Assembly (NCBI GenBank): GCA_963971225.1
Contig: OZ020270.1
Coordinates: 29,263,123-29,327,122, forward strand
Origin: Melieria omissa
Taxonomy: Eukaryota > Arthropoda > Insecta > Diptera > Ulidiidae
Length of the DNA stretch: 64,000 nt
Direction: 5' to 3'
Shown here: one piece after another, positions 5,536 to 50,280 of the stretch
Layout: each line of letters starts with the position of its first letter
Position numbering within the stretch: the stretch's first letter is position 1
Notes under the pieces: generated by a model
Told to the model about the DNA's origin: nothing
The model's database searches: none
Seen by the model: only the letters and a program-made list of their open reading frames with translations
Program-made: the position numbers and the translations under genes

Positions 5536-5691
5536 TATATAATTTCATTTTAATTTAAATTCATTTGTCGAACAACGCGCCAACGTTGCGTACACGCAAC
5601 ACAGATTCGAGACTTATCTAGAACACGCATAATGACGCCCAGATAATTCACAAACCAATTCTAATTTTTCCTTGCCTTTATGTGAACGTAT

Positions 5692-6123
5692 TGTAACGAT
5701 AAGACAGTCGGTCGCTGTGCAAAGCAACCCTGCCGCTACGTGCCGTGCAACGACGGCCGCGATGGTAACTTTTAGTCCAATCTGGCAACGACGGCCGCGA
5801 TAATAACTTTTAGTCCAACCTGGCAATGATGGAAACTTTTAGTCCACTCCGGAATGTGCGGGAACGATCTGCGCGATGGCCTGGCAGGTATAAAAGGCAG
5901 CCGGATGCGGCGCAGCGAGTCAGTCTGGTTTTGACAAGTGAAGTTGCCACACGGAGTGATTAAGCAAATATTTAAGTGTACGAACAGTAAAGTGTAAACT
6001 GTGAATAATAAAGTGACTGTTGGTTTATTTTATTGTCTGCGTTTAAGAAACTGACTGTGTTTTATTTTCAAATTACACAATCCAGAGATACGTAACAGCC
6101 CACTAGACGTAGTATTCGTAACA
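5692..6123 (+). repeat. Gypsy copy 1, 5' LTR
   Basis: Begins TGTAACGATAAGACAG and ends GTAGTATTCGTAACA. The U3 part holds about three diverged tandem units of roughly 35 bp (GGCAACGACGGCCGCGAT then TTTTAGTCCAA). One 16-bp piece of that array, present in the 3' LTR, is missing here. AATAAA at 6007-6012 is the likely polyadenylation signal in R. Confidence 0.9.
5889..5925 (+). promoter_or_regulatory. LTR core promoter: TATA box and initiator
   Basis: TATAAAA at 5889-5895 is followed 33 bp later by the arthropod initiator TCAGTC (5920-5925; A at 5922 would be +1). The spacing is that of a standard TATA-Inr promoter. The same pair occurs in the other LTRs of this family, for example near 11536-11575 and in the solo LTR near 13589. 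Confidence 0.8.
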
Positions 6124-6125
6124 TT

Positions 6126-6144
6126 TGGTGTCAGAAGTGGGATT
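6126..6144 (+). other. primer binding site, tRNA-Leu
   Basis: TGGTGTCAGAAGTGGGATT begins two bases after the 5' LTR and is complementary to the 3' end of tRNA-Leu(CAA), whose acceptor end reads AATCCCACTTCTGACACCA. Use of tRNA-Leu is typical of the mdg3 clade. In copy 2 (45453-45471 region, minus strand) the first base is C instead of T. Confidence 0.85.
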
Positions 6145-6197
6145 GTGGAAAATTGAAAGTAAACAAAAAAAAAATAGAAAATTATAAAAGCAAGGAC

Positions 6198-7714
6198 ATG
6201 GTTAAACTCGAGCTGCTGAAGGTAGACCAGCTGAAGAAGGAGCTGGCTGCCTGGAATTTGCCGACGGCTGGCGGAAAGGTGGAGTTGCAGTTGCGCTTGC
6301 GAGAAGCATGTGAGGCACGAGGCGTCGATTGGACTGTGTACGAGTTCGGAGCGCAAGAACTAGAGGCGTCGGCCAAGGTGGAGGAATCGCCTGCTGCTAC
6401 TGCGTCGCTGCAAAGTACGGCTGCAGCGGCTGCGCCACTACAAGCATTGGACATGAGCCAGCTAATGGTTGCACTTAGAGGCTTGTTCGAGACTTCCAAC
6501 CGTGAAATGGCAGCGAAACTGGAATCTTCGAATCAGGAGATGGCAGCGAAGCTGGAAACTACAAATCGAGAAATGGCAGCAAAAATGGAAACGGCGACCC
6601 AGAAATATCGGCGCAAGTGGCGGAGCGAATGGAAGTCAAGCTTCAGGAAAATTCTGCGCGCTTGGAGCAGAAAGTGGAGGAAATATCGGACAGGATTAAT
6701 GGGAAAGTCGAGCACCTGGAGACGCGGGTAGAGCATTTGGATAAACGAGTAGACGACTTAGATGATTCCCTGAACAAACGAGTTGGCGATCTGGATGATT
6801 CCCTAAACAAACGTGTTGACGATCTTGATGATTCCCTGAACAAACGAGTTGATAGTCTGGAAGTTTCGATGAACAGAAAAATGGACGAGCGGCTTAGGGA
6901 GGTACAGCCGCGAGAATGGTTGCCGCCGGTTCCGGAAAGTGTTGCCACCCGAGCAGAAGTGCCTACTTATGATGGGACTACGCCGTTCGATACCTTCAAG
7001 CTACAATTCGACCTGGCTGCTCTGGAAAATCAGTGGACCGATGTAAGAAAAGGTCGGAGATTGGCGCTGGCTCTTAAAGATGCTGCGGCTGAGGTAATAA
7101 AATCAGTTCCAGAATGTTTACGAAGTGAGTACGAGACCGTCATAAGGGCGCTGGCAGCCAAATACAGCGACGAGCACAACAGAAAGCTGTACTACTGTGA
7201 GCTGAAGAACCGCAGGCAAAGATCCAACGAGGCGCTGCAGACATATGCAGCAGACATTGAGCGGCTCGTGCAGCTGTGCTACCCGTCCTTCGGCGCCGAG
7301 GATCTCGAGATGATGAAGATTGAGGCGTTTATTGAAGGTCTTCATGATCCGGAGACACGTCGCAGTGCGTTGATGATGGGCAAGCCGACATTTAGGGAGA
7401 CGGTGACCAGCGCGATGACATACGAGGCGACATGGATTGGGAGCACTCGGTATGCACCTGCAAGGGTACGCCAGATCCAGCCGGACAACGACATTGCGAT
7501 CCAGGCCATAAGCTCTGAGCCACCGGGCAGGCCACGGGTGGTCTCCTCTAAAGTTCTTTGCTGGGTATGTGGCAAGCAGGGCCACATATCACGAGACTGC
7601 TGCCAACGAAAGAGGCGTTCCCGTTCTCGATCGCAATCGCCTGAAGCGAGGAATACTGACAATCGAGGCCCAGCTAACAAGCGCAGGGCTGAGGACGGCG
7701 AGTCGTTAAACTAA
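6198..7714 (+). pseudogene. gag: Gypsy copy 1 gag, one frameshift
   Basis: ATG 6198 opens with a SAP-like motif (LLKVDQLKKELAAWNLPTAG, then GKVELQLRLREA; residues about 6-36). SAP motifs usually bind DNA. Next come an Ala-rich linker and 11-residue tandem repeats of the types NREMAAKLETT and KRVDDLDDSLN, which should form a coiled coil. The Gag core follows, then a CCHC knuckle CWVCGKQGHISRDC (from 7559) and an Arg/Ser tail. The frame is lost at about 6600-6616 and resumes from 6617. The stop at 7712-7714 overlaps the frameshift signal that leads into pol. Confidence 0.85.
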
Positions 7715-10700
7715 AACGGGTCAGCCCAAAGGGGCGTGAGCTGATCCCCGCAATCTGCCGCCCCACCGTCCTTGTCTCACAGCTGAAACGACAGCCCAGC
7801 AGCTTGACAATTGAAGGAAGGATAGATGGAAAGTTGTTCGTGTTGACACTGGATACTGGAGCGTCATATTCGATCATAAAAAGGAAGCTGCTGAAGAACT
7901 GGGAACCGCTGCATGGCATACAGCTACGGACTGCGACTGGCGAGCGCGCGCCGGTAAGAGGGAAAGTTACGAAAACGATTGCTATCGGCACCAGCAGCCT
8001 GGAACATGAGTTCATCGTCGCGGATATAATGGACGACGTGATTATCGGCGTGGATTTCATGATTAGGCACGGTTTTACGCTGGACCTGAAGGAAAATGTG
8101 CTGAGATATGCCAACGTTGAATTCCCGCTGCACACCGGCTATGAGCGAAGCGTGGCGGTAAGGAAGGTTGTATCGTGTCAACACAGGAGGATACCAGCGA
8201 ATTCTGAGGCGATTGTGTGGGCAAAGGTGGACGAGGACGATGGGACGAGTCGGCTGTGGGTAGTAGAAGCACCGAAACAAGGACACGACAACATCATCAT
8301 CGGACGTACATTAGTGGAACCTAAAAATGGCAGAATACCAGTCAGAATACTGAACCCCCTGAATGCACCCAGATATGTCGGGAAAGATGAGGTAATTGGC
8401 GAGTGTAAGGAAGCTGTAGCAGTGGTCAATTGCGAGAGTAGCCCGCTTGGAGGTAATAAGAAGAGCGGTTTTAACATGGACGCCATACCGCAGGAGAACC
8501 AGTGGAGCAGCGAGTTGGCGGCCAAGCAGAAACAGAAGGCGAGGTCACTCCTGCAGCACTATGGGTCAATATTTGCGGTGGAAGCAGGCGGAAGAACAGC
8601 CATAGTGAAGCACAACATCGGTACCGGAAGTGCAAAACCGATTCGCCAACCGCCAAGACGAGTTCCTCTGGCCGAGAGGGAGGAGGTCAGAAATTTGATC
8701 GAGAACATGCGGAAAGACAAGGTCATAGAGCCGTCTTCGGGCCCCTGGTGCTCGCCGGTCGTGCTAGTCAAGAAAAAAGATGGCAGTACCCGGTTTCGTG
8801 TGGACTATCGGAAGCTCAATGATGTGACCAAGAAGGACAGTTATCCACTACCTCGGATCGATGACACCCTGGACACACTGTCAGGCACGCAGTGGTTCTC
8901 CACACTCGACTTACGCAGCGGCTATTGGCAGGTAGAGCTTGCAGACAAGGACAAGGAGAAAACGGCTTTCAGTGTTGGCGATGGTTTGTGGCAGTTCACC
9001 GTCATGCCGTTTGGACTCTGCAACGCACCAGCAACATTCGAGCGGCTAATGGAACGCGTGTTAAAAGGGGCTGCATTGGCGGACGTGTCTGGTGTACCTC
9101 GACGACATAATCGTAATGGGTAAAAGCTTCGACGACCGCCTGGGAAAGCTGAAGGAGGTATTTGAGCGGATACAAAAAGCTGGGCTTAAACTCAACCCAA
9201 AGAAGTGCTCGCTGTTCCAAAAGGAGGTCAAGTATCTGGGTCATACGGTTTCCGCCCGCGGAGTACATACGGATGAAGGCAAAATCACGGCGGTGAAGGA
9301 GTGGCCCCGGCCACGCAATCTACACGAACTCCGCAGTTTCCTGGGCCTGTGCACATACTACCGCCGATTTGTTCCGGGATTCGCGAACATAGCTAGCAGC
9401 CTGCACAAACTGACGAAAAAGGGCCAAGATTTCGAGTGGAACGAGGATCAGGAAGAGGCTTTTGCACGTCTGAAGGAAAAACTGTGCAGTGCTCTAATTC
9501 TGGCCTTCCCCGTGCCTGGGGAGATGTTTGTGCTGGATACAGATGCAAGCGGGAATAGTATTGGCGGTGTGCTATCACAGATAATAAACGGCCAGGAACA
9601 AGTGATAGCGTACTACAGTAGGGTTCTATCGAAACCGGAACGCAACTACTGTGTGACACGGAGAGAACTGCTGGCGGTATTGGACTGCGTAAAACACTTC
9701 CACAAATATCTGTATGGACAAAGGTTTCTCCTGCGCACAGATCATGCGGCATTGAAATGGCTCCTGAACTTTAAAGATCCTGAAGGGCAATTGGCGCGGT
9801 GGATCGAGCGATTGCAGAGCTACGACTACACGATAGAGCATCGCAAAGGCAGTAGCCATGGAAATGCCGATGCATTGTCCCGCCGTCCGTGCAAAGTCGA
9901 ATGCAGGCAATGCTCGCGAGCCGAAAGCAAAAAACTGATAGTGGACGTCCGGTTGGTAAGCGTTATGCCAGAGGAAGGGTGGTCGGCGGAGAGGCTACAA
10001 AACGACCAGCGTGAGGATGCGGATCTTGCAAAAATCGTCGAAGGCAAGGAGCAAGGCGCACGTCCAGACTGGCAGGAGATGGCCGGTGAAAGCCCGATCG
10101 CCAAGGCTTACTGGGCACAGTGGAAAAGTCTGCGACTGAAAGAAGGATGCCTGTACCGCGAATGGGAGAGCGCGGATGGTCGGACCAGCAACTCTCTAAT
10201 GGTAGTGCCGAAATGCAGAATCAACGAGGTCATCGAGGCATACCATAACGACTCCAGTGGAGGGCACCAGGTGTATCACCAAAACCGTCGCCAAAATAAA
10301 AAGACGATTCTACTGGGTAGGATGTCAGGAGTGTGTAGCCGAGTGGATTAAGAGCTGCGACCGATGTTCAGCCGCGAAAGGGCCGACAAGAAAATCTCGA
10401 GGCCGCATGCAGCAGTACAACGTGGGAGCGCCCTTCGAGCGGATTGCTATGGACGTCGCCGGCCCATTCCCAACTAGCACTCAAGGCAACAAATATGTGC
10501 TGGTGGTAATGGATTACTTCAGCAAATGGCCCGAAGTGTATCCTATTCCTAACCAGGAGGCCACTACGATCTCGGAAAAGCTGGTAAACAACTGGGTAGC
10601 CAGGTTCGGAGTTCCGTTGGAGTTACACCCAGATCAAGGCCGGAATTTCGAGTCTGCGGTATTCAAGGAAGTGTGTGAGCTACTGGGGATAAAGAAAACT

Positions 10701-11312
10701 CGTACCACGCCTTTGCACCCACAGTCCCACGGCATGGTGGAACGCTTTAACCGGACACTGGAGGAATACCTGCGGAAAGTGGTAGACAGGAATCAAAAGG
10801 ATTGGGACACGCATATCCCCCTGTTCCTGATGGCGTATAGGTCAGCCCCGCACGACACGACATCACTCACTCCAGCCCGAGCAGTGTTCGGCACAGAGTT
10901 GTGGTTACCCGCTGACTTGAAGTTCGGCGTAGTCAGCACGACGGGAGGCGCTAAGACGGACTACGCGGTCAAAAAGCGGGCGGAACTGGAGGAAATTCAC
11001 CAGTTTATAAGGAGCCGCACCAAACTGGTCAGCGATAAGGCGAAAGCCAGATATGATCTACGGGCCAACTCAGCAGGGTTCCAAGAAGGCGATCTGGTAA
11101 TGCTCTACAACCCGCAGCGGTGGAAAGGTTTGTCTCCGAAACTTCAAGCGTCATGGGAAGGACCGTACGAAGTCGTGACTAGGATTAACGACGTGGTATA
11201 CAGGATTCAACGTTGCAGCAATGAAGGCGCTAAGCTGAAGGTAGTCCATTTGGAGCGCCTGGCGCCTCATCACAGCGGAGCCTCGGCACTTGTTCGGGAC
11301 GAACAAGTCTAA
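7693..11312 (+). pseudogene. pol: Gypsy copy 1 pol, two frame breaks
   Basis: The frame opens at 7693 in the -1 phase relative to gag. Protease: LTLDTGASYS (about 7846-7875). Reverse transcriptase: WCSPVVLVKKKDGSTRFRVD, then LPRIDDTL, MPFGLCNAP and YLDD (9095-9106). RNase H follows (DTDASGNSIGGVLSQ, TDHAALKWLL). Integrase: a zinc-binding YHNDSSGGH...CDRC, then catalytic Asp in AMDVAGPF, Asp in LHPDQGRNFES and Glu in MVERFNR. The frame slips by +1 at the G run 9067-9070, just before YLDD, and again near 10265-10272 in the integrase zinc finger. Both breaks recur in copy 2. Compared with copy 2, this copy has His instead of Asp in the loop before MVERF. Confidence 0.88.
7705..7764 (+). promoter_or_regulatory. 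predicted -1 ribosomal frameshift signal, gag to pol
   Basis: GTTAAAC at 7705-7711 lies in the gag frame as G TTA AAC, directly before the gag stop TAA. This heptamer is a known -1 slippery site (equine arteritis virus). Six bases downstream, GGGTCAGC (7718-7725) can pair with GCTGATCC (7740-7747). The loop GGGGCG (7731-7736) can pair with CGCCCC (7759-7764), giving an H-type pseudoknot with loops of 5, 3 and 11 nt. Pol is in the -1 frame and overlaps gag by 22 nt (7693-7714). The prediction is by eye. Confidence 0.72.
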
Positions 11313-11323
11313 GTGGTGGGCAG

Positions 11324-11771
11324 TGTAACGATAAGACAGTCTGTCGCTGTGCAAAGCAACCCTGCCGCTACGTGCCGTGCTATAATCCAATCTGGCAACG
11401 ACGGCCGCGATGGTAACTTTTAGTCCAATCTGGCAACGACGGCCGCGATAATAACTTTTAGTCCAACCTGGCAATGATGGAAACTTTTAGTCCACTCCGG
11501 AATGTGCGGGAATGATCTGCGCGATGGCCTGAGAGGTATAAAAGGCAGCCGGATGCGGCGCAGCGAGTCAGTCTGGTTTTGACAAGTGGAGTTGCCACAC
11601 GGAGTGATTAAGCAAATACTTAAGTGTACGAACAGTAAAGTGTAAACTGTGAATAATAAAGTGACTGTTGGTTTATTTTATTGTCTGCGTTTAATAAACT
11701 GACTGTGTTTTATTTTCAAATTACACAATCCAGAGATACGTAACAGCCCACTAGACGTAGTATTCGTAACA
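11324..11771 (+). repeat. Gypsy copy 1, 3' LTR
   Basis: 448 bp, preceded by the purine-rich tract AAGTGGTGGGCAG, the likely primer for plus-strand synthesis. It carries an extra 16 bp (TATAATCCAATCTGGC) absent from the 5' LTR. Otherwise it differs by about seven substitutions. Confidence 0.9.
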
Positions 11772-12077
11772 GTATTTTCATGTCGACCAAAAAAAGAATT
11801 AACGTTTGACAATTTTTAGTGTGCGATTCAAAATTTGTCTGAAAAACATGGGTCTACATATACAAGTGTGTGTGTCAGTGTGTGTTTTGTAGATGGTTGA
11901 GATATGGTGGGGAAGAAAGCCTAAGGATATACCTTCCGAACAAAAAAAACTTTATCGCAATACCTCACACACACTGCACATACGAATTTTTTAGTAACGT
12001 TGCGTATACGCAACAGAGGAAGGAAATGGGTTAAAGAAATAGATGCGAATTCGCGTGCCATGTTGCTTCGTTGACAG

Positions 12078-14451: not shown

Positions 14452-14652
14452 GTGTGAGCGGTGTAAATTACCCCAATTGCGAATTTTCTCTTTCACTCAT
14501 ACTCAAGGCGACTCATACTACTGCTACAGCACAGCTTCTCATGCACATAGATACAAATAGAAAAAATGTCATAAATAGAAAGTCAAGTTTTAGAGGTTAT
14601 AGTTTAAAGATAAAAACTACATACATCAAAAGAAAATATACAAAATATTTTA

Positions 14653-15171
14653 CTACATGGGCTGAAAAGTCTTTGGCCTGACATAGAGATGGCGCCAAAA
14701 ATTAAGAATTATTGTGTTGTACATGGAAACCCATCCTTAACTTAGATTCTGTCAAAGTTTCATGACATTTGGTTGACTCGTTTTCAAGTTATTGCTTTCG
14801 AAGTGACGCTACCTCTGAATTTTTGTAAACAATGGAAAAAAGTGAATTTCGTGTTTTGATAAAACATTGCTATTTGATGGGCAAAAATACAGTGGAAACA
14901 AAAGCATGGCTTGATAAATGTTATAATACATCTGTATTTTTGCCCATCAAATAGCAATGTTTTATCAAAACACGAAATTCACTTTTTTCCATTGTTTACA
15001 AAAATTCAGAGGTAGCGTCACTTCGAAAGCAATAACTTGAAAACGAGTCAACCAAATGTCATGAAACTTTGACAGAATCTAAGTTAAGGATGGTTTTCCA
15101 TGTACAACACAATAATTCTTAATTTTTGGCGCCATCTCTATGTCAGGCCAAAGACTTTTCAGCCCATGTAG
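14653..15171. mobile_element. mariner fold-back element with near-perfect 240-bp arms
   Basis: Arms 14653-14892 and 14932-15171 are inverted copies with a single difference by eye; the loop is 39 bp. Each arm begins CTACATGGGCTGAAAAGTCT and is flanked by TA (14651-14652, 15172-15173). Reading plus-strand from ATG 14832, the arm encodes a mariner transposase N-terminus (MEKSEFRVLIKHCYLMGKNT), cut off in the loop. So two mariner 5' ends are joined head to head. A transcript would fold into a long hairpin. Confidence 0.88.
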
Positions 15172-15173
15172 TA

Positions 15174-15788
15174 AAGTGTGGTTTGTTTATGAGAACTTAG
15201 AAGTATAATTGTAAAAAATGTGGGACTTGGGAGGAGTTTATTTTTGAAAAATATAAAGAGACAAAAATGTCTATGAAACATAAACAAGGATTTCAAAAGT
15301 AGTTAATTTAAGCTAATAGTGGAAAAAACCGAAATTTAAGTAAATTGCAGAGCTTTAAATGTTATGAAATTACTTATGTAAATAATATGAATTTCTTTTT
15401 TGATACTTCAGGGGTGTTTCATTACGCTTTTAGGGATATTTTTCCAACATTTTGTGGGCCTTTGGTACACTTTCGAAAAATTGCTGTAAAATGTCATTAA
15501 TATAGTTTTTATCTGACAGAGTCGAATATTTTATGACTTTTGTTCGAATTCTTTTGGCACAGTTTTGGAAAATACCAAGTATAAAATGAGGTAAGCTATT
15601 TCATCAGGCGGTTGGTTTTTTTAAACGTAGTATGCAAGGGATTATTTGACCTTTGTTTCGATTTGCTAGCTTTTTGGCGATTTTTAGAGCAGATTCGAAA
15701 AGTTAGAGCCTATTTATACGAAGGCTTTCCCCTTGCGTTTTTTTCAATTCTCTTTTGAAGTTGCTGCGTAAATCGTCAAGAATTTATG
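15174..15788. other. unassigned AT-rich DNA
   Basis: About 600 bp between two TA-target elements. No open frame, inverted ends or RNA gene that I can support. Confidence 0.5.
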
Positions 15789-31177: not shown

Positions 31178-32500
31178 CACATCTGGGTAAACATGCCGAA
31201 AACCCGCGCATTACGGCTAATCTTAAAGTTACGGGCCTAACCTTTTTTTTTTATTTTTCGTAATCTACATGCATGTAGCAGTCAGAAAATGCATGTAAAT
31301 TGGACCGAAACTGGCTGCTGTATAGCCGTTCAAAGTTGGGTGTTTTTATACTCAATTTCATTTTATCGATGCAACTTTTTTGATGGTGATGCTGAAATGT
31401 CAATTAAATCGTTATTTTTAAATATAATCAAATAATTTTTGGTACGTATAATAATAATGTATTCCTACATTTAATTTGACATATAATTCTTTTCCATTGC
31501 ACATTTTCTTGTAAGTTCTCAAAGTTTGGGAAAAAACAACGATTTTTTTAGGAAAATGTCCTACTTTCGTGGTGTATAACTTTTATGGATAATCATGGAT
31601 AATCGAAAATCTTTAGGGAAGGTAAGTAGGAACCTTCATAAAAAAAATGATACCCAACTTGTCTGCGGAAAGCTGCGGAATGGTTAGATTTTTGGACTTG
31701 TATTCACTTCTCTTAGTAAGAAAACAAATATATATGAACTAAAAACTTTTGAACGCGCGTATGGGTCGGTACGTTTATAGCACTTGATGCATATATATAA
31801 TATTAAAAATAATAATTAAAGTAAAAATAGATGTGATTTATCACCTGAAGTAATAAATATGCTAAACAAATATTTTGTATAAATTTTTTCGGCGGGTATG
31901 CAGGATGATTCTTGAAAAAGGCAATATATTTTAATAAAACTTTGTGTGGAATTTACGCGTGACCTAACTAACATAAACTCTGACGTAAAAATGGGCATGG
32001 AACGCCCACTTTTAAGTAGGGTTGCCATATAAGCATACTTGGTTAAATTGGGAAAATTTATTATATTTATATACTTACTTATAACGGTAAGTGGGCATGG
32101 TACTCCCCATTAACCCGTTATGAGCCGTATCAACCCGTATCAAATGGTTTTTGCTTAAATACGAATTACACTACATGTATGTGTTTTTTGTGGGTGTTTT
32201 ACGAAAGGAGGCGAAAAATGGGGGCGTGGCTACAATCTAGAATATTCATAAGTCAGTTTGGGTCGATTTAAATACTTTAACTGTGGTTTTGTTTTTTACT
32301 AATGAAGATTTTAAAAGTGCCTAATTGCCGACTGTAGGGTGCCGGTGCGAGGTACAGTAAATCAAATAAAATTATGGTGAACAAATCTCTGAAGAGTCCT
32401 GAAGCAGATGTCCAAATTTGAGGTATTTATCTTTAACCGTATAGATACTACAGCATAAAATAGGCAATGCGCGGGTTTTTGGCATGTTTACCCCATTGTG
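31178..32500. mobile_element. Transib-like element 1
   Basis: Ends CACATCTGGGTAAACATGCC and inverted CACAATGGGGTAAACATGCC, each followed by AAAACCCGCGCATT, with a perfect 5-bp TSD CGCCG (31173-31177, 32501-32505). A CACWRTG start and CGNCG target are Transib hallmarks. 1323 bp with no transposase, hence non-autonomous. Internal stretches such as AACGCCCACTTTTAAG and GGGGCGTGGC resemble the block at 20.4-22 kb. The 32506-32810 stretch is unassigned. Confidence 0.85.
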
Positions 32501-40177: not shown

Positions 40178-40591
40178 TGTTACGGATACTACGTCTAGTG
40201 GGCTGTTACGTATCACTAGATTGTGCAATTTGAAAATAAAACACACTCAGTTTCTTAAGCGCAGACAATAAAATAAACCAACAGTCACTTTATTATTCAC
40301 AGTTTACACTTTACTGTTCGTACACTTAAGTATTTGCTTAATTACTCCGTGTGGCAACTTCACTTGTCAAAACCAGACTGACTCGCTGCGCCGCATCCGG
40401 CTGCCTTTTATACCTCTCAGGCCATCGCGCAGATCGTTCCCGCACATTGCCAGGTTGGACTAAAAGTTTCCATCATTGCCAGGTTGGACTAAAAGTTTCC
40501 ATCATCGCGGTCATCGTTGCCAGATTGAATTATAGCACGGCGCGTAGCGACAGGGTTGCTTTGCACAGCGACAGACTGTCTTATCGTTACA
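40178..40591 (-). repeat. Gypsy copy 2, 3' LTR
   Basis: 414 bp, TGTTACGGATACTACG to CGTTACA as written on the plus strand. Its U3 tandem units differ in arrangement from copy 1 (two GCCAGGTTGGACTAAAAGTT units side by side). Confidence 0.88.
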
Positions 40592-40602
40592 CTGCCCACC
40601 AC

Positions 40603-43600
40603 TTAGACTTGTTCGTCCCGAACAAGTGCCGAGGTTCCGCTGTGATAAGGCGCCAGGCGCTCCAAATGGACTACCTTCAGCTTAGCGCCTTCATTGCTGC
40701 AACGTTGAATCCTGTATACCACGTCGTTTATCCTAGTCACGACTTCGTTAGGTCCTTCCCATGACGCTTGAAGTTTCGGAGACAAACTTTTCCTCCGCTG
40801 CGGGTTGTAGAGCATTACCAGATCGTCCTCTTGGAACCCTGCTGAGTTGGCCCGTAAATCATATCTGGTTTTCGCCTTATCGCTGACCAGTTTGGTGCGG
40901 CTCCTTATAAACTGGTGAATTTCCTCCAGTTCCGCCCGCTTATTGACCACGTAGTCCGTCTTAGCGCCTCCCGTCGTGCTGACAACCCCGAACTTCAAGT
41001 CAGCGGGTAGCCGCAACTCTGTGCCGAACACTGCTCGGGCTGGAGTGAGTGATGTCGTGTCGTGCGGGGCTGACCTATACGCCATCAGGAACAGGGGGAT
41101 ATGCGTGTCCCAATCCTTTTGATTCCTGCCTACCACTTTCCGCAGGTATTCCTCCAGTGTCCGGTTAAAGCGTTCCACCATGCCGTCGGACTGTGGGTGC
41201 AAAGGAGTGGTACGCGTTTTCTTTATCCCCAGCAGCTCACACACTTCCTTGAATACCGCAGATTCGAAATTCCGGCCTTGATCTGAGTGCAACTCCAACG
41301 GAACTCCGAACCTGGCTACCCAGTTGTTTACCAGCTTTTCCGAGATCGTAGTGGCCTCCTGGTTAGGAATAGGGTACACTTCGGGCCATTTGCTGAAGTA
41401 ATCCATTACCACCAGCACATATTTGTTGCCTTGAGTGCTAGTTGGGAATGGGCCGGCGACGTCCATAGCAATCCGCTCGAAGGGCGCTCCCACGTTGTAC
41501 TGCTGCATGCGGCCTCGAGATTTTCTTGTCGGCCCTTTCGCGGCTGAACATCGGTCGCAGCTCTTAATCCACTCGGCTACAGACTCCTGACATCCTACCC
41601 AGTAGAATCGTCTTTTTATTTTGGCGACGGTTTTGGTGATACACCTGGTGCCCTCCACTGGAGTCGTTATGGTATGCCTCGATGACCTCGTTGATTCTGC
41701 ATTTCGGCACTACCATTAGAGAGTTGCTGGTCCGACCATCCGCGCTCTCCCATTCGCGGTACAGGCATCCTTCTTTCAGTCGCAGACTTTTCCACTGTGC
41801 CCAGTAAGCCTTGGCGATCGGGCTTTCACCGGCCATCTCCTGCCAGTCTGGACGTGCGCCTTGCTCCTTGCCTTCGACGATTTTTGCAAGATCCGCATCC
41901 TCACGCTGGTCGTTTTGTAGCCTCTCCACAGACCACCCTTCCTCTGGCATAACGCTTACCAACCGGACGTCCACTATCAGTTTTTTGCTTTCGGCTCGCG
42001 AGCATTGCCTGCATTCGACTTTGCACGGACGGCGGGACAATGCATCGGCATTTCCATGGCTACTGCCTTTGCGATGCTCTATCGTGTAGTCGTAGCTCTG
42101 CAATCGCTCGATCCACCGCGCCAATTGCCCTTCAGGATCTTTAAAGTTCAGGAGCCATTTCAATGCTGCATGATCTGTGCGCAGGCGAAACCTTTGTCCA
42201 TACAGATATCTGTGGAAGTGTTTTACGCAGTCCAATACCGCCAGCAGTTCTCTCCGTGTCACACAGTAGTTGCGTTCCGGTTTCGATAGAACCCTACTGT
42301 AGTACGCTATCACTTGTTCCTGGCCGTTTATTATCTGTGATAGCACACCGCCAATACTATTCCCGCTTGCATCTGTATCCAGCACAAACATCTCCCCAGG
42401 CACGGGGAAGGCCAGAATTAGAGCACTGCACAGTTTTTCCTTCAGACGTGCAAAAGCCTCTTCCTGATCCTCGTTCCACTGGAAATCTTGGCCCTTTTTC
42501 GTCAGTTTGTGCAGGCTGCTGGCTATGTTCGCGAATCCCGGAACAAATCGGCGGTAGTATGTGCACAGGCCCAGGAAACTGCGGAGTTCGTGTAGATTGC
42601 GTGGCCGGGGCCACTCCTTCACCGCCGTGATTTTGCCTTCATCCGTATGTACTCCGCGGGCGGAAACCGTATGACCCAGATACTTGACCTCCTTTTGGAA
42701 CAGCGAGCACTTCTTTGGGTTGAGTTTAAGCCCAGCTTTTTGTATCCGCTCAAATACCTCCTTCAGCTTTCCCAGGCGGTCGTCGAAGCTTTTACCCATT
42801 ACGATTATGTCGTCGAGGTACACCAGACACGTCCGCCAATGCAGCCCCTTTTAACACGCGTTCCATTAGCCGCTCGAATGTTGCTGGTGCGTTGCAGAGT
42901 CCAAACCGCATGACGGTGAACTGCCACAAACCATCGCCAACACAGAAAGCCGTTTTCTCCTTGTCCTTGTCTGCAAGCTCTACCTGCCAATAGCCGCTGC
43001 GTAAGTCGAGTGTGGAGAACCACTGCGTGCCTGACAGTGTGTCCAGGGTGTCATCGATCCGAGGTAGTGGATAACTGTCCTTCTTGGTCACATCATTGAG
43101 CTTCCGATAGTCCACACGAAACCGGGTACTGCCATCTTTTTTCTTGACTAGCACGACCGGCGAGCACCAGGGGCCCGAAGACGGCTCTATGACCTTGTCT
43201 TTCCGCATGTTCTCGATCAAATTTCTGACCTCCTCCCTCTTGGCCAGAGGAACTCGTCTTGGCGGTTGGCGAATCGGTTTTGCACTTCCGGTGCCGATGT
43301 TGTGCTTCACTATGGCTGTTCTTCCGCCTGCTTCCACCGCAAATATTGATCCATAGTGCTGCAGGAGTGACCTCGCCTTCTGTTTCTGCTTGGCCGTCAA
43401 CTCGCTTATCCACTGGTTCTCCTGCGGTATGGCGTCCATGTTAAAACCGGTCTTCTTATTACCTCCAGGCGGGCTACTCTCGCAATTGACCACTGCTACA
43501 GCTTCCTTACACTCGCCAATTACCTCATCTTTCCCGACATATCTGGGTGCATTCAGGGGGTTCAGTATTCTGACTGGTATTCTGCCATTTTTAGGTTCCA

Positions 43601-43947
43601 CTAATGTACGTCCGATGCGCGACGATGAACTCATGTTCCAGGCTGCTGGTGCCGATAGCAATCGTTTTCGTAACTTTCCCTCTTACCGGCGCGCGCTCGC
43701 CAGCCGCAGTCTGCAGCTGTATGCCATGCAGCGGTTCCCAGTTCTTCAGCAGCTTCCTTTTTATGATCGAATATGACGCTCCAGTATCCAGTGTCAACAC
43801 GAACAACTTTCCATCTATCCTTCCTTCAATTGTCAAGCTGTTGGGCTGTCGTTTCAGCTGTGAGACAAGGACGGTGGGGCGGCAGATTGCGGGGATCAGC
43901 TCACGCCCATTTGGGCTGACCCGTTTTAGTTTAACGACTCGCCGTCC
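40603..43947 (-). pseudogene. pol: Gypsy copy 2 pol
   Basis: Protease DTGASYSIIKR is present (about 43790), but about 290 bp are deleted near 43610 between protease and reverse transcriptase. Reverse transcriptase, RNase H and integrase are otherwise as in copy 1, with YLDD near 42808-42819 and integrase LHSDQG and SDGMVERFNR intact. The +1 slips at the C run 42845-42848 (before YLDD) and near 41640-41655 (integrase zinc finger) are the same as in copy 1. The stop at 40603-40605 is 11 bp from the LTR. No env. Confidence 0.88.
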
Positions 43948-45410
43948 TCAGCCCTGCGCTTGTTAGCTGGGCCTCGATTGTCAGTATTCCTCGCTTCAGG
44001 CGATTGCGATCGAGAACGGGAACGCCTCTTTCGTTGGCAGCAGTCTCGTGATATGTGGCCCTGCTTGCCACATACCCAGCAAAGAACTTTAGAGGAGACC
44101 ACCCGTGGCCTGCCCGGTGGCTCAGAGCTTATGGCCTGGATCGCAATGTCGTTGTCCGGCTGGATCTGGCGTACCCTTGCAGGTGCATACCGAGTGCTCC
44201 CAATCCATGTCGCCTCGTATGTCATCGCGCTGGTCACCGTCTCCCTAAATGTCGGCTTGCCCATCATCAACGCACTGCGACGTGTCTCCGGATCATGAAG
44301 ACCTTCAATAAACGCCTCAATATTCATCCTCTCGAGATCATCAGCGCCGAAGGTAGCACAGCTGTACGAGCCGCTCAATGTCTGCAGCGCCTCGTTGGAT
44401 CTTTGCCTGCGGTTCTTCAGCTCACAGTAGTACAGCGTTCTGTTGTGCTCGTCGCTGTATTTGGCTGCCAGCGCCCTTATGACGGTCTCGTACTCACTTC
44501 GTAAACATTCTGGAACTGATTTTATTACCTCAGCCGCAGCATCTTTAAGAGCCAGCGCCAATCTCAGACCTTTCATTACATCGGTCCACTGATTTTCCAG
44601 AGCAGCCAGGTCGAATTGCAGCTTGAATGTGTCGAACGGCGTAGTCCCATCATAACTAGGTACTTCTGCTCGGGGGGCAACACTTTCCGGAACCGGCGGC
44701 AACCATTCTGGCGGCTGTACCTCCCTAAGCCGCTCGTCCATTTTTCTGTTCATCGAGTCTTCTAGACTATCAACTCGTTTGTTCAGGGAATCATCTAAGT
44801 CGTCGACTCGTTTATCCAAGTGCTCTACCCGCGTCTCCAGGTGCTCGACTTTCCCATTAATCCTGTTTGAGATTTCCTCCACTTTCTGCTCCAAGCGCGC
44901 AGAATTTTCCTGAAGCTTGCTGGACAACTCCCGATTTGCATTTTCAAGTTTTGCTGACATTTCCCGATTTGCAGTCTCGACTTTTGCCGAAATTTCGAGA
45001 TTCGTAGTTTCCAGCTTCGCTGCCATCTCTCGATTCGTAGTTTCCAGCTTCGCTGCCATTTCTCGATTCGTAGTTTCCAGCTTCGCTGCCATTTCTCGAT
45101 TCGCTGTTTCCATTTGCGCCGACATGCCTTTGAGTGCAGCCATTAGTTGGCTCATGTCCAACGCTTGTATTGGTGCAGCCGCTGCAGCTGTACTCTGTAG
45201 CGAAGCAGCACCAGCAGGCGACTCCTCCACCTTGGCCGACGCCTCCAGTTCTTGCGCTCCGAACTCGTGCACAGTCCAATCGACGCCTCGCGCCTCACAT
45301 GCTTCTCGCAAGCGCAACTGCACCTAAACCTTTCCGCCAGCAGTCGGAAAATTCCAGGCAGCCAGCTCCTTCTTCAGCTGGTCTACCTTCAGCAGCTCGA
45401 GTTTAACCAT
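43926..45410 (-). pseudogene. gag: Gypsy copy 2 gag, stop at codon 29
   Basis: ATG at 45410. A nonsense codon (45324-45326) falls in the SAP-like motif; after it the frame is open for 465 codons. It has about six 11-residue units of the NREMAAKLETT type (copy 1 has three) but only two KRVDDLDDSLN units (copy 1 has four). About 20 residues are altered or lost around EALQTLSGSYSCATFGADD. The CCHC knuckle CWVCGKQGHISRDC is intact. The slippery heptamer GTTAAAC (43929-43935, minus strand) lies at the gag stop. Confidence 0.85.
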
Positions 45411-45471
45411 GTCCGTGCTTTTATAATTTTATTTATTTTCAGTTTTCCACAATCCCACTTCTGACACCGAA

Positions 45472-45874
45472 TGTTACGAATGCTACGTCTAGTGGGCTGT
45501 AACGTATCACTGGATTGTGCAATTTGAAAATAAAACACACTCAGTTTCGTAAGCGCAGACAATAAAATAAACCAACAGTCACTTTATTATTCACAGTTTA
45601 CACTTTACTGTTCGTACACTTAAGTATTTGCTTATTTGTGGCAACTTCACTTGTCAAAACCAGACTGACTCGCTGCGCCACATCCGGCTGCCTTTTATAC
45701 CTCTCAGGCCATCGCGCAGATCGTTCCCGCACATTCCAGAGTGGACTAAAAGTTTCCATCATTGCCAGGTTGGACTAAAAGTTATTATCGCGGCCGTCGT
45801 TGCCAGATTGGATTATAGCACGACACGTAGCGGCAGGGTTGCTTTGCACAGCGACAGACTGTCTCATCGTTACA
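45472..45874 (-). repeat. Gypsy copy 2, 5' LTR
   Basis: 403 bp. It lacks 11 bp (AATTACTCCGT) present in the other LTRs. Next to it on the left is the tRNA-Leu primer site with one mismatch. Confidence 0.88.
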
Positions 45875-47682: not shown

Positions 47683-50280
47683 TCAAAAGTTAACTTTTCT
47701 CGATTTAATTGCTGCAAATTCGCGTATTATATCCTCGTAATCTAACATTGCAGCAGTTTCACTTTCGATTGAAAGAATTGCAAGGTTTGATAATCTACTT
47801 TGACTCATGGTTGATCTCAAGTAAGATTTTATCAATTTAAGTTTGCTGAATGATCTTTCACAGGAAGCAACTGAAACAGGTATGGTTAGTAATATTTGCA
47901 AAGCTGTCGCTAATGTCTTGTAAGCTTCGCGTCCCATTGATGAAATGTATAACAGAAGTTGTTCAGGCGAAAATCCAATTTCCTTTTCGTTTTTCTTCGC
48001 TCTTTTTAATAAAAGTAGGACGTCTTGAATATCGTTGAACAAGTCTTCGTTGTCCAAGTCATCTGGATAAAACTCGGCAAGTTTCTTGCATTTTCCTTCT
48101 ATTTTGAGAAGCTCATCTTTGTAAAAATCTCTGGGTAGTTGTATTATTTTTTCAAAGTTACAAAGGAAACCAAAACGTTCATCGAGCTTCTTCAAATTTG
48201 TGAAACGTGTAGATATTTCCATTGAAAGTTTATCCAAAATTTCAATTAGAGATCGTCGCATTTCTTCTTCTGAATCCAATCCAGAATCTTCAGATGTTTC
48301 TCCTGGCATATTTCGCTTTTTTCGAATTCTTTTGACAATGCTCACACCCAACTCGTTACATTTTTCTTTAGCTTTACAAATGGCACGGTCGCACAAGTCG
48401 ATTCTCCAATCATTCAGTTTGTCTGTCAACATTTGCAATTGTCCAAGTACATAAGTAAAACTGATTCCTTTTTCTTGTAACCGTTTCTGAACTCTATCAA
48501 ATGATACAAGAATTTCTGCCCAAAAAAACAAAAAAGCAATGAAATCAAATGTTTCTATAGCATTGATAACCAACGCTGCATCTTGTCTGGTATCAATATT
48601 TTCTGTGACCGTATCTCTCAAGTGTTCCAGCGCTGAAATGACTTCGTCCAATTGTGTTGATACTGGTTTCACAGCTTCAGCTTCTGAGCTCCACCTAGTT
48701 TCACAATGCCTTTTGACCGTTATACTAACGTATTCTTTAAGAACGTCCCATCTGTGGGTAGAGGAGGAGAAATAAGTGAAGAGACGCTGTATTGTTCCAA
48801 AAAATGTTACTGCTCGGACATTGACGTGGGCTGCGTGTACTCCTGCCAAATTGAGAGAATGATTATCACAAGGAACGAAAACAGCTTGTTCATTCAGGTC
48901 GATGATTCTCTGCTGGACTCCTGTATGGATACCGGCCATTGTTGGTGCATTGTCGTATGATTGACCTCTACAATCTTTCAGGATTAATTCATCTTCATCC
49001 AGTTTGTTCGTAATAGCTTCAGTAACTTCTTCTGCTGTTTTGACTTTCAGAGGTATGAAATCAATGAAGACTTCTCTGATTTTTACTGAATTTGGTTTAA
49101 CTTCGACGAATCTGATAATTTGAGACATCTGTTCCTCATGTGCGGAATCCGGAGTTGAATCGAACATTAGACTGTAATATTTCGCATCTTTGCACTGAGA
49201 AATGAGAAATTTACGCACTTTGTTCCCCATCATAGTGATGAGTTCATTTTGAATTCTGGGAGAAAGATACGATAAGCATCCTGGTTCTGAAGAAATGTGT
49301 TCGAAGTGAGATTTCATGACAGGATCAAATTTGGCCAAATATCTCAGCAGAGCTAAAAAATTCCCAGGATTCAGATTATCGATCGACTCGCGATGTCCTC
49401 TCAGAGCCAAATTTTGTTGTGCAAGCGTTTGAATAGTTACAATAATTCTTTCGAGTATATTCCTCCAATATTTTTCCTCTTCAGCAACTTGGCGTTGTAA
49501 ATCATCATCGATACCTCCACCTTGATTCAGAGTTCGTTCTAATTCCTTCCATTCTAAGAAAGCTAAGCGGTGAGCAGGACTATTTTCATGATCTTGGACA
49601 CGTGGATTCAATTTACGCCACGATGAAAACCCCGAAGCATTGGTAAAGTGACTCTGACTGCTCTGACAACTTTTTTGTGGGAATAAGATGCAACAAAAAC
49701 AAAACAAAGCATTTTTGATCAGGGAAAAACACATCCAGGTGCGAGCGATCCGTTCGCCATTTTTCAAAGTTTTCTCAAACCAAGTTTTGGTTAAAGATCG
49801 TCCAGTATCATCCTGTGGGAATTCCGCATCAATATTTTGAAGTCTGCTCGTGCCTTGTCCAACCATCAAATCGCGAAAAGATGAATCTATCTTAACAGGC
49901 CAAGTTCCCACATCTTTTGTAAAAGTAGCATTCACACCACTTGCGTTTGGACTCTTGTCATCTTCTTCAGGATTACGCAAAGCAATATCTTCTTCCGGAT
50001 GATTTGAGTGAATATCAAGTTCATCGCTGGTTCCAATGACATTTAATGAATGTTTTTCTGATTTTTCTTCGCTATTCTTACTGACTTCATCTGCATTCTT
50101 ATCGTACTCAATATCAGTTTCCTCAGCTGATGTCGAGTCCTCACTTGAAAAAACAGGATTTTGTGCAGTCGTGCCTTTTTCGACGAAAGCTTCCATAAAG
50201 TTTTTAGACTTCGTAGAACTCTGCAGTTTTTGCATTTTCATTTTTCGAAACTGGGCACCACTGGGTTTGTTTCTCTTCAT
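47683..50280 (-). CDS. hAT transposase (TTF-finger, DUF4371 type)
   Basis: 865 codons, ATG 50280 to TAA 47683. An acidic, Ser-rich N-terminus (residues 1-125) precedes a TTF-type zinc finger (about 165-225: RIARTWMCFSLIKNALFCFC). The DUF4371/RNase-H-like core has Asp motifs SLMFDSTPD (about 370) and CRGQSYDNAPTMAG (about 440), then FVPCDNHSLNLAG and HCETRWSSEAEAV. The C-terminal hAT dimerisation domain (LLTIPVSVASCERSFSKLKL) ends the protein. Size and order match ZMYM1-like hAT transposases. It would bind the CAGTGGCGTA ends and cut and paste into 8-bp targets. No frame damage is visible; promoter not identified. Confidence 0.88.
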   Translation of the reverse strand: MKRNKPSGAQFRKMKMQKLQSSTKSKNFMEAFVEKGTTAQNPVFSSEDSTSAEETDIEYDKNADEVSKNSEEKSEKHSLNVIGTSDELDIHSNHPEEDIALRNPEEDDKSPNASGVNATFTKDVGTWPVKIDSSFRDLMVGQGTSRLQNIDAEFPQDDTGRSLTKTWFEKTLKNGERIARTWMCFSLIKNALFCFCCILFPQKSCQSSQSHFTNASGFSSWRKLNPRVQDHENSPAHRLAFLEWKELERTLNQGGGIDDDLQRQVAEEEKYWRNILERIIVTIQTLAQQNLALRGHRESIDNLNPGNFLALLRYLAKFDPVMKSHFEHISSEPGCLSYLSPRIQNELITMMGNKVRKFLISQCKDAKYYSLMFDSTPDSAHEEQMSQIIRFVEVKPNSVKIREVFIDFIPLKVKTAEEVTEAITNKLDEDELILKDCRGQSYDNAPTMAGIHTGVQQRIIDLNEQAVFVPCDNHSLNLAGVHAAHVNVRAVTFFGTIQRLFTYFSSSTHRWDVLKEYVSITVKRHCETRWSSEAEAVKPVSTQLDEVISALEHLRDTVTENIDTRQDAALVINAIETFDFIAFLFFWAEILVSFDRVQKRLQEKGISFTYVLGQLQMLTDKLNDWRIDLCDRAICKAKEKCNELGVSIVKRIRKKRNMPGETSEDSGLDSEEEMRRSLIEILDKLSMEISTRFTNLKKLDERFGFLCNFEKIIQLPRDFYKDELLKIEGKCKKLAEFYPDDLDNEDLFNDIQDVLLLLKRAKKNEKEIGFSPEQLLLYISSMGREAYKTLATALQILLTIPVSVASCERSFSKLKLIKSYLRSTMSQSRLSNLAILSIESETAAMLDYEDIIREFAAIKSRKVNF

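Follow-up and report, generated by a model that had tools for sequence, protein, structure and literature searches.

A probable −1 frameshift signal with a candidate pseudoknot stimulator at the gag/pol junction of a Ty3/Gypsy element in Melieria omissa

This study concerns the gag/pol junction of a long terminal repeat (LTR) retrotransposon found in a 64,000-nucleotide (nt) stretch of the genome of the ulidiid fly Melieria omissa (GCA_963971225.1, contig OZ020270.1, positions 29,263,123 to 29,327,122 of the forward strand), the whole of which we call the window. Self-BLAST reveals two copies of one element in opposite orientation within the window. Copy 1 occupies 5692-11771, its LTRs measuring 432 and 448 nt and differing at 7 of 432 aligned positions; copy 2 lies on the minus strand at about 40178-45874, with 17 differences between its LTRs over 403 aligned positions, LTR ends of the same type and GTAT on both sides. 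Pfam matches in pol run in the order protease, reverse transcriptase (RT), RNase H and integrase; the RT piece has its best PDB match, and so its closest solved relative, in Ty3; and the integrase frame ends at 11312 with the 3′ LTR starting at 11324, leaving no space for env. Because of the LTR ends, the pol domain order, the Ty3 match and the lack of room for env, the element is, as judged from these features, a Ty3/Gypsy LTR retrotransposon without env, in line with an initial annotation, made from the letters alone, that had placed a Gypsy gag/pol junction here. The gag of copy 1 switches frame somewhere within 6506-6731, and its pol frame breaks off at 9123. Near the gag end the zinc knuckle motif CWVCGKQGHISRDC is visible, the corresponding zf-CCHC match (E 7e-4, 20.0 bits) falling just below the 20.8 cut-off. 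A candidate primer-binding site, TGGTGTCAGAAGTGGGA, starts 2 nt past the 5′ LTR; that it would match tRNA-Leu is our guess.

At the junction itself gag ends with TCG TTA AAC TAA, and the open −1 frame of pol begins at 7693 (Table 1). The initial annotation had read GTTAAAC in the gag phase directly before the gag stop, pol in the −1 frame, and a 6-nt spacer leading to an 8-base-pair (bp) stem 1 and a 6-bp stem 2 that can pair as an H-type pseudoknot; all of this is borne out by the sequence. Its description of the gag stop as built into the slippery site was inaccurate, the TAA following the heptamer and not lying inside it. Within the overlap GTTAAAC is the sole in-frame slippery candidate located wholly upstream of the gag stop. 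It departs from the strict XXX triplet of X XXY YYZ but is a natural variant tabulated as a shift site, and it occurs nine times on the plus strand of the window. Stem 1 comprises eight pairs, one of them G-U, and stem 2 six G-C pairs; loops 1, 2 and 3 of the knot would be 5 nt (7726-7730), 3 nt (7737-7739) and 11 nt (7748-7758) long. Copy 2 retains the heptamer, spacer and stem 1, and the outermost stem 2 pair is the sole pair it has lost, again as initially described.

Table 1. Features of the copy 1 element and its gag/pol junction, with the copy 2 junction.
Feature	Position	Strand	Detail	Basis
5′ LTR, copy 1	5692..6123	+	TGTAAC...GTAACA; target-site repeat GTAT at 5688-5691	self-BLAST, end reading
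gag region	6198..7714	+	ATG 6198, SAP-like domain at start, zinc knuckle near end	
gag/pol overlap	7693..7714	+	22 nt	
Slippery heptamer G TTA AAC	7705..7711	+	gag frame	
gag stop TAA	7712..7714	+	adjoins heptamer	
Spacer TAAAAC	7712..7717	+	6 nt, gag stop first	
Stem 1, 5′ arm	7718..7725	+		
Stem 2, 5′ arm	7731..7736	+	within stem 1 loop	
Stem 1, 3′ arm	7740..7747	+		
Stem 2, 3′ arm	7759..7764	+	7759 is C or T, either pairs with G7736	
pol, first piece	7711..9123	+	−1 frame; protease (DTGA Asp codon at 7852), first part of RT	
pol, later pieces	9092..11312	+	RT end and RNase H 9092-10351; integrase 10257-11312	
3′ LTR, copy 1	11324..11771	+	followed by GTAT 11772-11775	self-BLAST, end reading
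Copy 2 junction	43876..43947	−	heptamer at 43935-43929; intact spacer and stem 1; 5 of 6 pairs left in stem 2	

The 490-Mb assembly that contains the window was searched for further copies of the family, and with the 150 N-terminal residues of pol as query, 150 copies were listed out of 2988 first-look candidates. Among the listed copies the pol open frame is exactly 1205 amino acids (aa) long in 51 and 1192-1209 aa long in 60 (hand count). A gag/pol overlap of exactly 22 nt, counted from the opening of the pol frame through the gag stop, is seen in 27 of 30 loci; as to the remaining three, L013 has a 13-nt overlap, and L012 and L017 were missed by the text anchor, which failed where a base is changed (stem 1 and loop 1). 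On the gag side, the same ATG leads to the same stop in three of the four long-gag loci examined (L008, with 516 aa, L023 and L004). From these frames, the −1 offset is the normal state of the family, and since the 1205-aa pol is open in so many of the listed copies it would not be a product of decay. Pol has its first in-frame ATG at 8029, downstream of the codon for the catalytic Asp of the protease.

Preservation of the junction was followed in a set of 103 copies from the same genome (30 + 9 + 20 + 40 + 4): 30 loci cut from 40 listed matches; 9 from 20 fetched pieces, the other 11 being without the junction by BLAST; 20 that we chose from the 51 copies with the 1205-aa pol frame; 40 that we chose from a further list of 150 rows; and 4 from five old copies recognised among 20 pieces with a protease match, the fifth, L113, lacking the region. 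L165 and L166 were compared by BLAST alone, L031-L060 were left out of the junction analysis, and L018-L022 sit in one tandem array and are hence not independent. GTTAAAC is kept in 98 of the 103 copies. The triplet after it is TAA in 98, TAG or TGA in four and TAC in one, giving a stop in 102. All eight stem 1 pairs are present in 96 copies, and heptamer and every pair together in 84. That other copies might fail to keep stem 2 had been named at the outset as an outcome that would speak against a frameshift element; all six of its pairs are found in 95 copies. Altogether 44 pair cells are changed, 29 of which still pair and 15 of which are broken; 17 of the 29 are C7759T, which turns a G-C into a G-U pair in 17 copies and is the only stem change that is widely shared. 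As to the compensatory changes that the initial annotation had suggested looking for, the stems show this one widely shared, one-sided change, which keeps pairing as G-U, and none that is two-sided.

Taking as core the 41 sites of the heptamer, spacer and stems, and as shared those variants common to at least four copies (a threshold set by us), we count 15 shared variants, one in the core and 14 in the 87 other sites, these 14 including 7 at the 42 sites of the gag flank, 4 at the 26 sites of the pol flank and 3 at the 11 sites of loop 3. The core is poorer in shared variants (Fisher p 0.036; p 0.005 without the pair-keeping C7759T), for copies that are not independent. Rare changes are scattered over all parts of the junction, as in decaying copies. 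We do not accept the conservation of the stems as proof of selection, the copies being close and private changes occurring in all parts.

A more diverged sample came from a genome search with the distant pol protein P0092, which returned the same family, with its top four rows forming what we call lineage B. Over 900 nt the junction regions of these copies (L161-L164) share 92-93% identity with the window, and they match the window copy exactly in the heptamer, spacer, stem 1 and loops 1 and 2. Four fixed differences fall within the element, three in loop 3 and the fourth C7759T, and no pair is broken; at 7750 in loop 3 it is the window copy that carries the less common base, and the remaining differences recur among the 103 copies. 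Each of the four replaces an amino acid, whereas the pol flank has 30 differences of which 25 are silent (p 0.003; 0.010 without 7750). Because these changes alter the peptide yet break no pair, the junction peptide, by this sequence comparison, seems free to change while the pairing stays. The knot is possible in both lineages, with model scores of −22.1 (window) and −20.7 (lineage B), while the competing nested fold differs between them, a contrast that we find more telling than the counts of changes. Beyond the family, covariation in distant relatives was unobtainable: two viral_contigs scans confirmed no relative, and the gag protein search scored none. The pol protein has 3107 relatives, the best 120 of which come, where the source is named, mostly from orb-weaver spiders, together with a single beetle, a butterfly and other animals; these relatives come without DNA, and hence gave no junction comparison.

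The scores just given are from an energy model of H-type pseudoknots with assumed nearest-neighbour stacking values and a fixed penalty of 9.6, uncalibrated on known frameshift knots, whose ranks are more reliable than its energy values. In it no other of the 127,840 positions on the two strands of the window scores as well as the knot at 7718 (−22.07). When 7712-7796 was shuffled with dinucleotides preserved, 4 of 50,000 shuffles reached this value with a stem 1 starting 4-10 nt past the heptamer, and the score of the copy 2 knot was reached by 24 of 50,000. Since the position had been pre-selected by frame, stop and heptamer, chance is, within this model, a poor explanation for the knot. No family in Rfam matches the junction, all four matches returned there lying under their cut-offs.

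Taken together, we consider it likely that this env-less Ty3/Gypsy element has a programmed −1 frameshift signal at its junction, probably stimulated by a pseudoknot. Support for the −1 frameshift element as initially interpreted comes from pol lying in the −1 frame, from the single in-frame candidate and from pairing that is kept across subfamilies. The frames, their overlap, the heptamer, the spacer, the pairing potential with its excess over chance, its preservation and the open pol elsewhere are seen directly, and from these we infer that the knot would form and stimulate slippage with some efficiency, and that it may have a role in the Gag to Pol ratio. In such a scenario, a ribosome at the end of gag, with UUA in its P site and AAC in its A site, would be made to pause by the H-type pseudoknot 6 nt downstream, which resists unwinding. 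Some ribosomes would then slip both tRNAs back by one base, from UUA to GUU and from AAC to AAA, and read on as CTA AAA CGG, producing a Gag-Pol protein with Ser-Leu-Asn-Leu-Lys-Arg over the junction, and those that do not slip would terminate at the following UAA.

A number of points weigh against this interpretation. The P-site tRNA would be expected to re-pair less well on GUU than on UUU. The copies are for the most part closely related, some in tandem arrays, and are not independent; C7759T may be a single event, the same loop 3 and 7759 variants recurring elsewhere; once it is excluded, broken pair cells outnumber kept ones, 15 versus 12, and no two-sided pair change occurs across the 103 copies and lineage B. 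The comparison of lineage B with the window does not set the core apart (1 of 41 core sites changed versus 38 of 724, Fisher p 0.72). As for the knot, its energies depend on the assumed stacking values and the one uncalibrated penalty, and the margin over the runner-up (position 31266, −21.35) is small. Nested folding of the junction region is ordinary (z −0.76, 46 of 200 shuffles equally stable), and the nested minimum of −18.3 contains stem 2 without stem 1, whose pairing probability there is below 0.01. In L134, which has a mismatch in stem 1, a nested fold of −18.3 is no worse than the knot of −18.0.

The last observations raise the possibility that ribosomes slip at GTTAAAC with a nested hairpin as the stimulator, be it stem 2 with inner pairs or a GGG/CCC hairpin 6 nt downstream. 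The nested minimum fits this in giving stem 2 a probability of about 0.95 and placing a 3-bp hairpin directly after the spacer, as does L134. The same fold, however, separates its strong helix from the heptamer by 19 nt and reaches −18.3 versus −22.1 for the model knot in the window copy; it is not the minimum in lineage B, which loses its inner helix and folds otherwise (−17.0), in L123 and L149, which fold like lineage B, or in L134, nor fully in copy 2; and this fold leaves out stem 1, which all but a few of the 103 copies preserve intact. We therefore regard a nested stimulator as unlikely. It is still less probable, to our mind, that the two structures form a two-state element, in which the knot (model −22) competes with the nested stem 2 fold excluding stem 1 (−18). 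If this were true, co-translational or protein-driven switching would govern the Gag/Gag-Pol ratio or the transition between translation and packaging.

Routes that make pol as a separate protein, through reinitiation, internal initiation or splicing, do occur in some retroelements, but an AUG start of pol would lose the protease active site, since ATG 8029 lies beyond Asp codon 7852, and the heptamer and the pseudoknot would have to be a coincidence, which makes such routes very improbable here. We give hardly any credence to, and thus reject, decay as the cause of the offset, that is, an insertion or deletion in an ancestral single gag-pol frame with incidental heptamer and stems: both window copies are indeed broken elsewhere in gag or pol, and several other families of the genome carry the zinc knuckle and protease in one frame, but the 1205-aa pol, the 22-nt overlap and the ATG-to-stop gag described above are common to many copies, and lineage B has the same arrangement.

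Returning to the frameshift signal with its probable knot, other elements of the same host offer a comparison. Among the 20 protease-match pieces, L103 and L119, one copy each, belong to other families with pol in the −1 frame, with overlaps of 46 and 43 nt and in-frame TTTAAAC and AAATTTT, respectively; several other pieces have the zinc knuckle and protease in one frame. The model knots of L103 and L119 are much weaker, at −13.2 (starting 11 nt past the heptamer) and −1.5. Other elements of the host thus appear to carry classical −1 sites, with a strong model knot in the present family alone among the three checked. In PEG10, frameshifting is stimulated by a pseudoknot, and the heptamer is different from GTTAAAC. 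PEG10 and other Gypsy-derived host genes likewise use a −1 frameshift, but are domesticated (PMC5009743; PMC2800197).

With respect to animal elements more widely, a 2003 survey, as related in PMC5009743, has pol in the −1 frame in 28 of 51 LTR elements, many of which, like the present one, have an appropriately placed heptanucleotide. A pseudoknot stimulator, which is supported by conservation here, is not described for the surveyed animal elements in section 11 of that source. Nine AgCR elements of Anopheles, which are CsRn1-like and also Ty3/Gypsy elements of an insect host, are said to use −1 overlaps (PMC2582038), and the text of that paper is without the words slippery, heptanucleotide, pseudoknot and stem-loop. 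The same heptamer, GUUAAAC, is tabulated for the unrelated equine arteritis virus with a downstream two-stem pseudoknot and a spacer of 5 nt, compared to 6 nt here (PMC3835772); the viral knot has a 10-bp stem 1 and a very long loop, in contrast to the compact knot of this element with loops of 5, 3 and 11 nt. Typical spacers are 6-9 nt according to the same source. Among the open-licence papers listed, judged by title, none dealt with a stimulatory RNA or pseudoknot at an arthropod Gypsy gag/pol junction.

Several other aspects of the element and its surroundings deserve mention. The later part of pol is present as two open pieces of 419 and 351 aa in both window copies (9092-11312; 40603-42823), unlike copies elsewhere, where an unbroken pol frame is common. 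Both window copies seem to share the same pol defects, as would result from one defective parent mobilised in trans or from a duplication. ACGTAT precedes both insertions and GTAT flanks both (5686-5691, 11772-11775 and the copy 2 flanks), which hints at a target-site preference. The gag begins with a SAP domain, a nucleic-acid-binding fold, at 6207-6308. It matches Pfam PF02037 above the cut-off (E 3.1e-8), and the same N-terminus begins the gag of L008, L023 and L004; a literature search combining SAP domain, gag and LTR retrotransposon, judged by title, found no such element. Family copies occur in regular arrays at C4 8005424-8064477, C3 74086803-74107777 and C3 51185203-51200082 with near-constant spacings of about 8.4, 6.9 and 7.2 kb, which suggests that blocks including the element were amplified in tandem. 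In the list of 150 copies, the family spans the whole of C4 (79 Mb) and mostly the middle parts of C1 and C3, and its distribution on C4 looks as if this were a repeat-rich or sex chromosome. Elsewhere in the window are a perfect 244-nt inverted repeat (14649-14892 / 14932-15175, arms 39 nt apart) and, on the minus strand, an unbroken hAT-type transposase frame of 865 aa (47683-50280), in which DUF4371 and hAT dimerisation domains are recognised.

The mechanism of −1 frameshifting is itself well known, and here its signal is well preserved across many copies. A compact and well-positioned knot that two or more lineages of a highly abundant, recently active family have retained would make a convenient natural model for the Gag/Pol ratio, and the use of GUUAAAC outside the arteriviruses would bear on which P-site re-pairings are tolerated.

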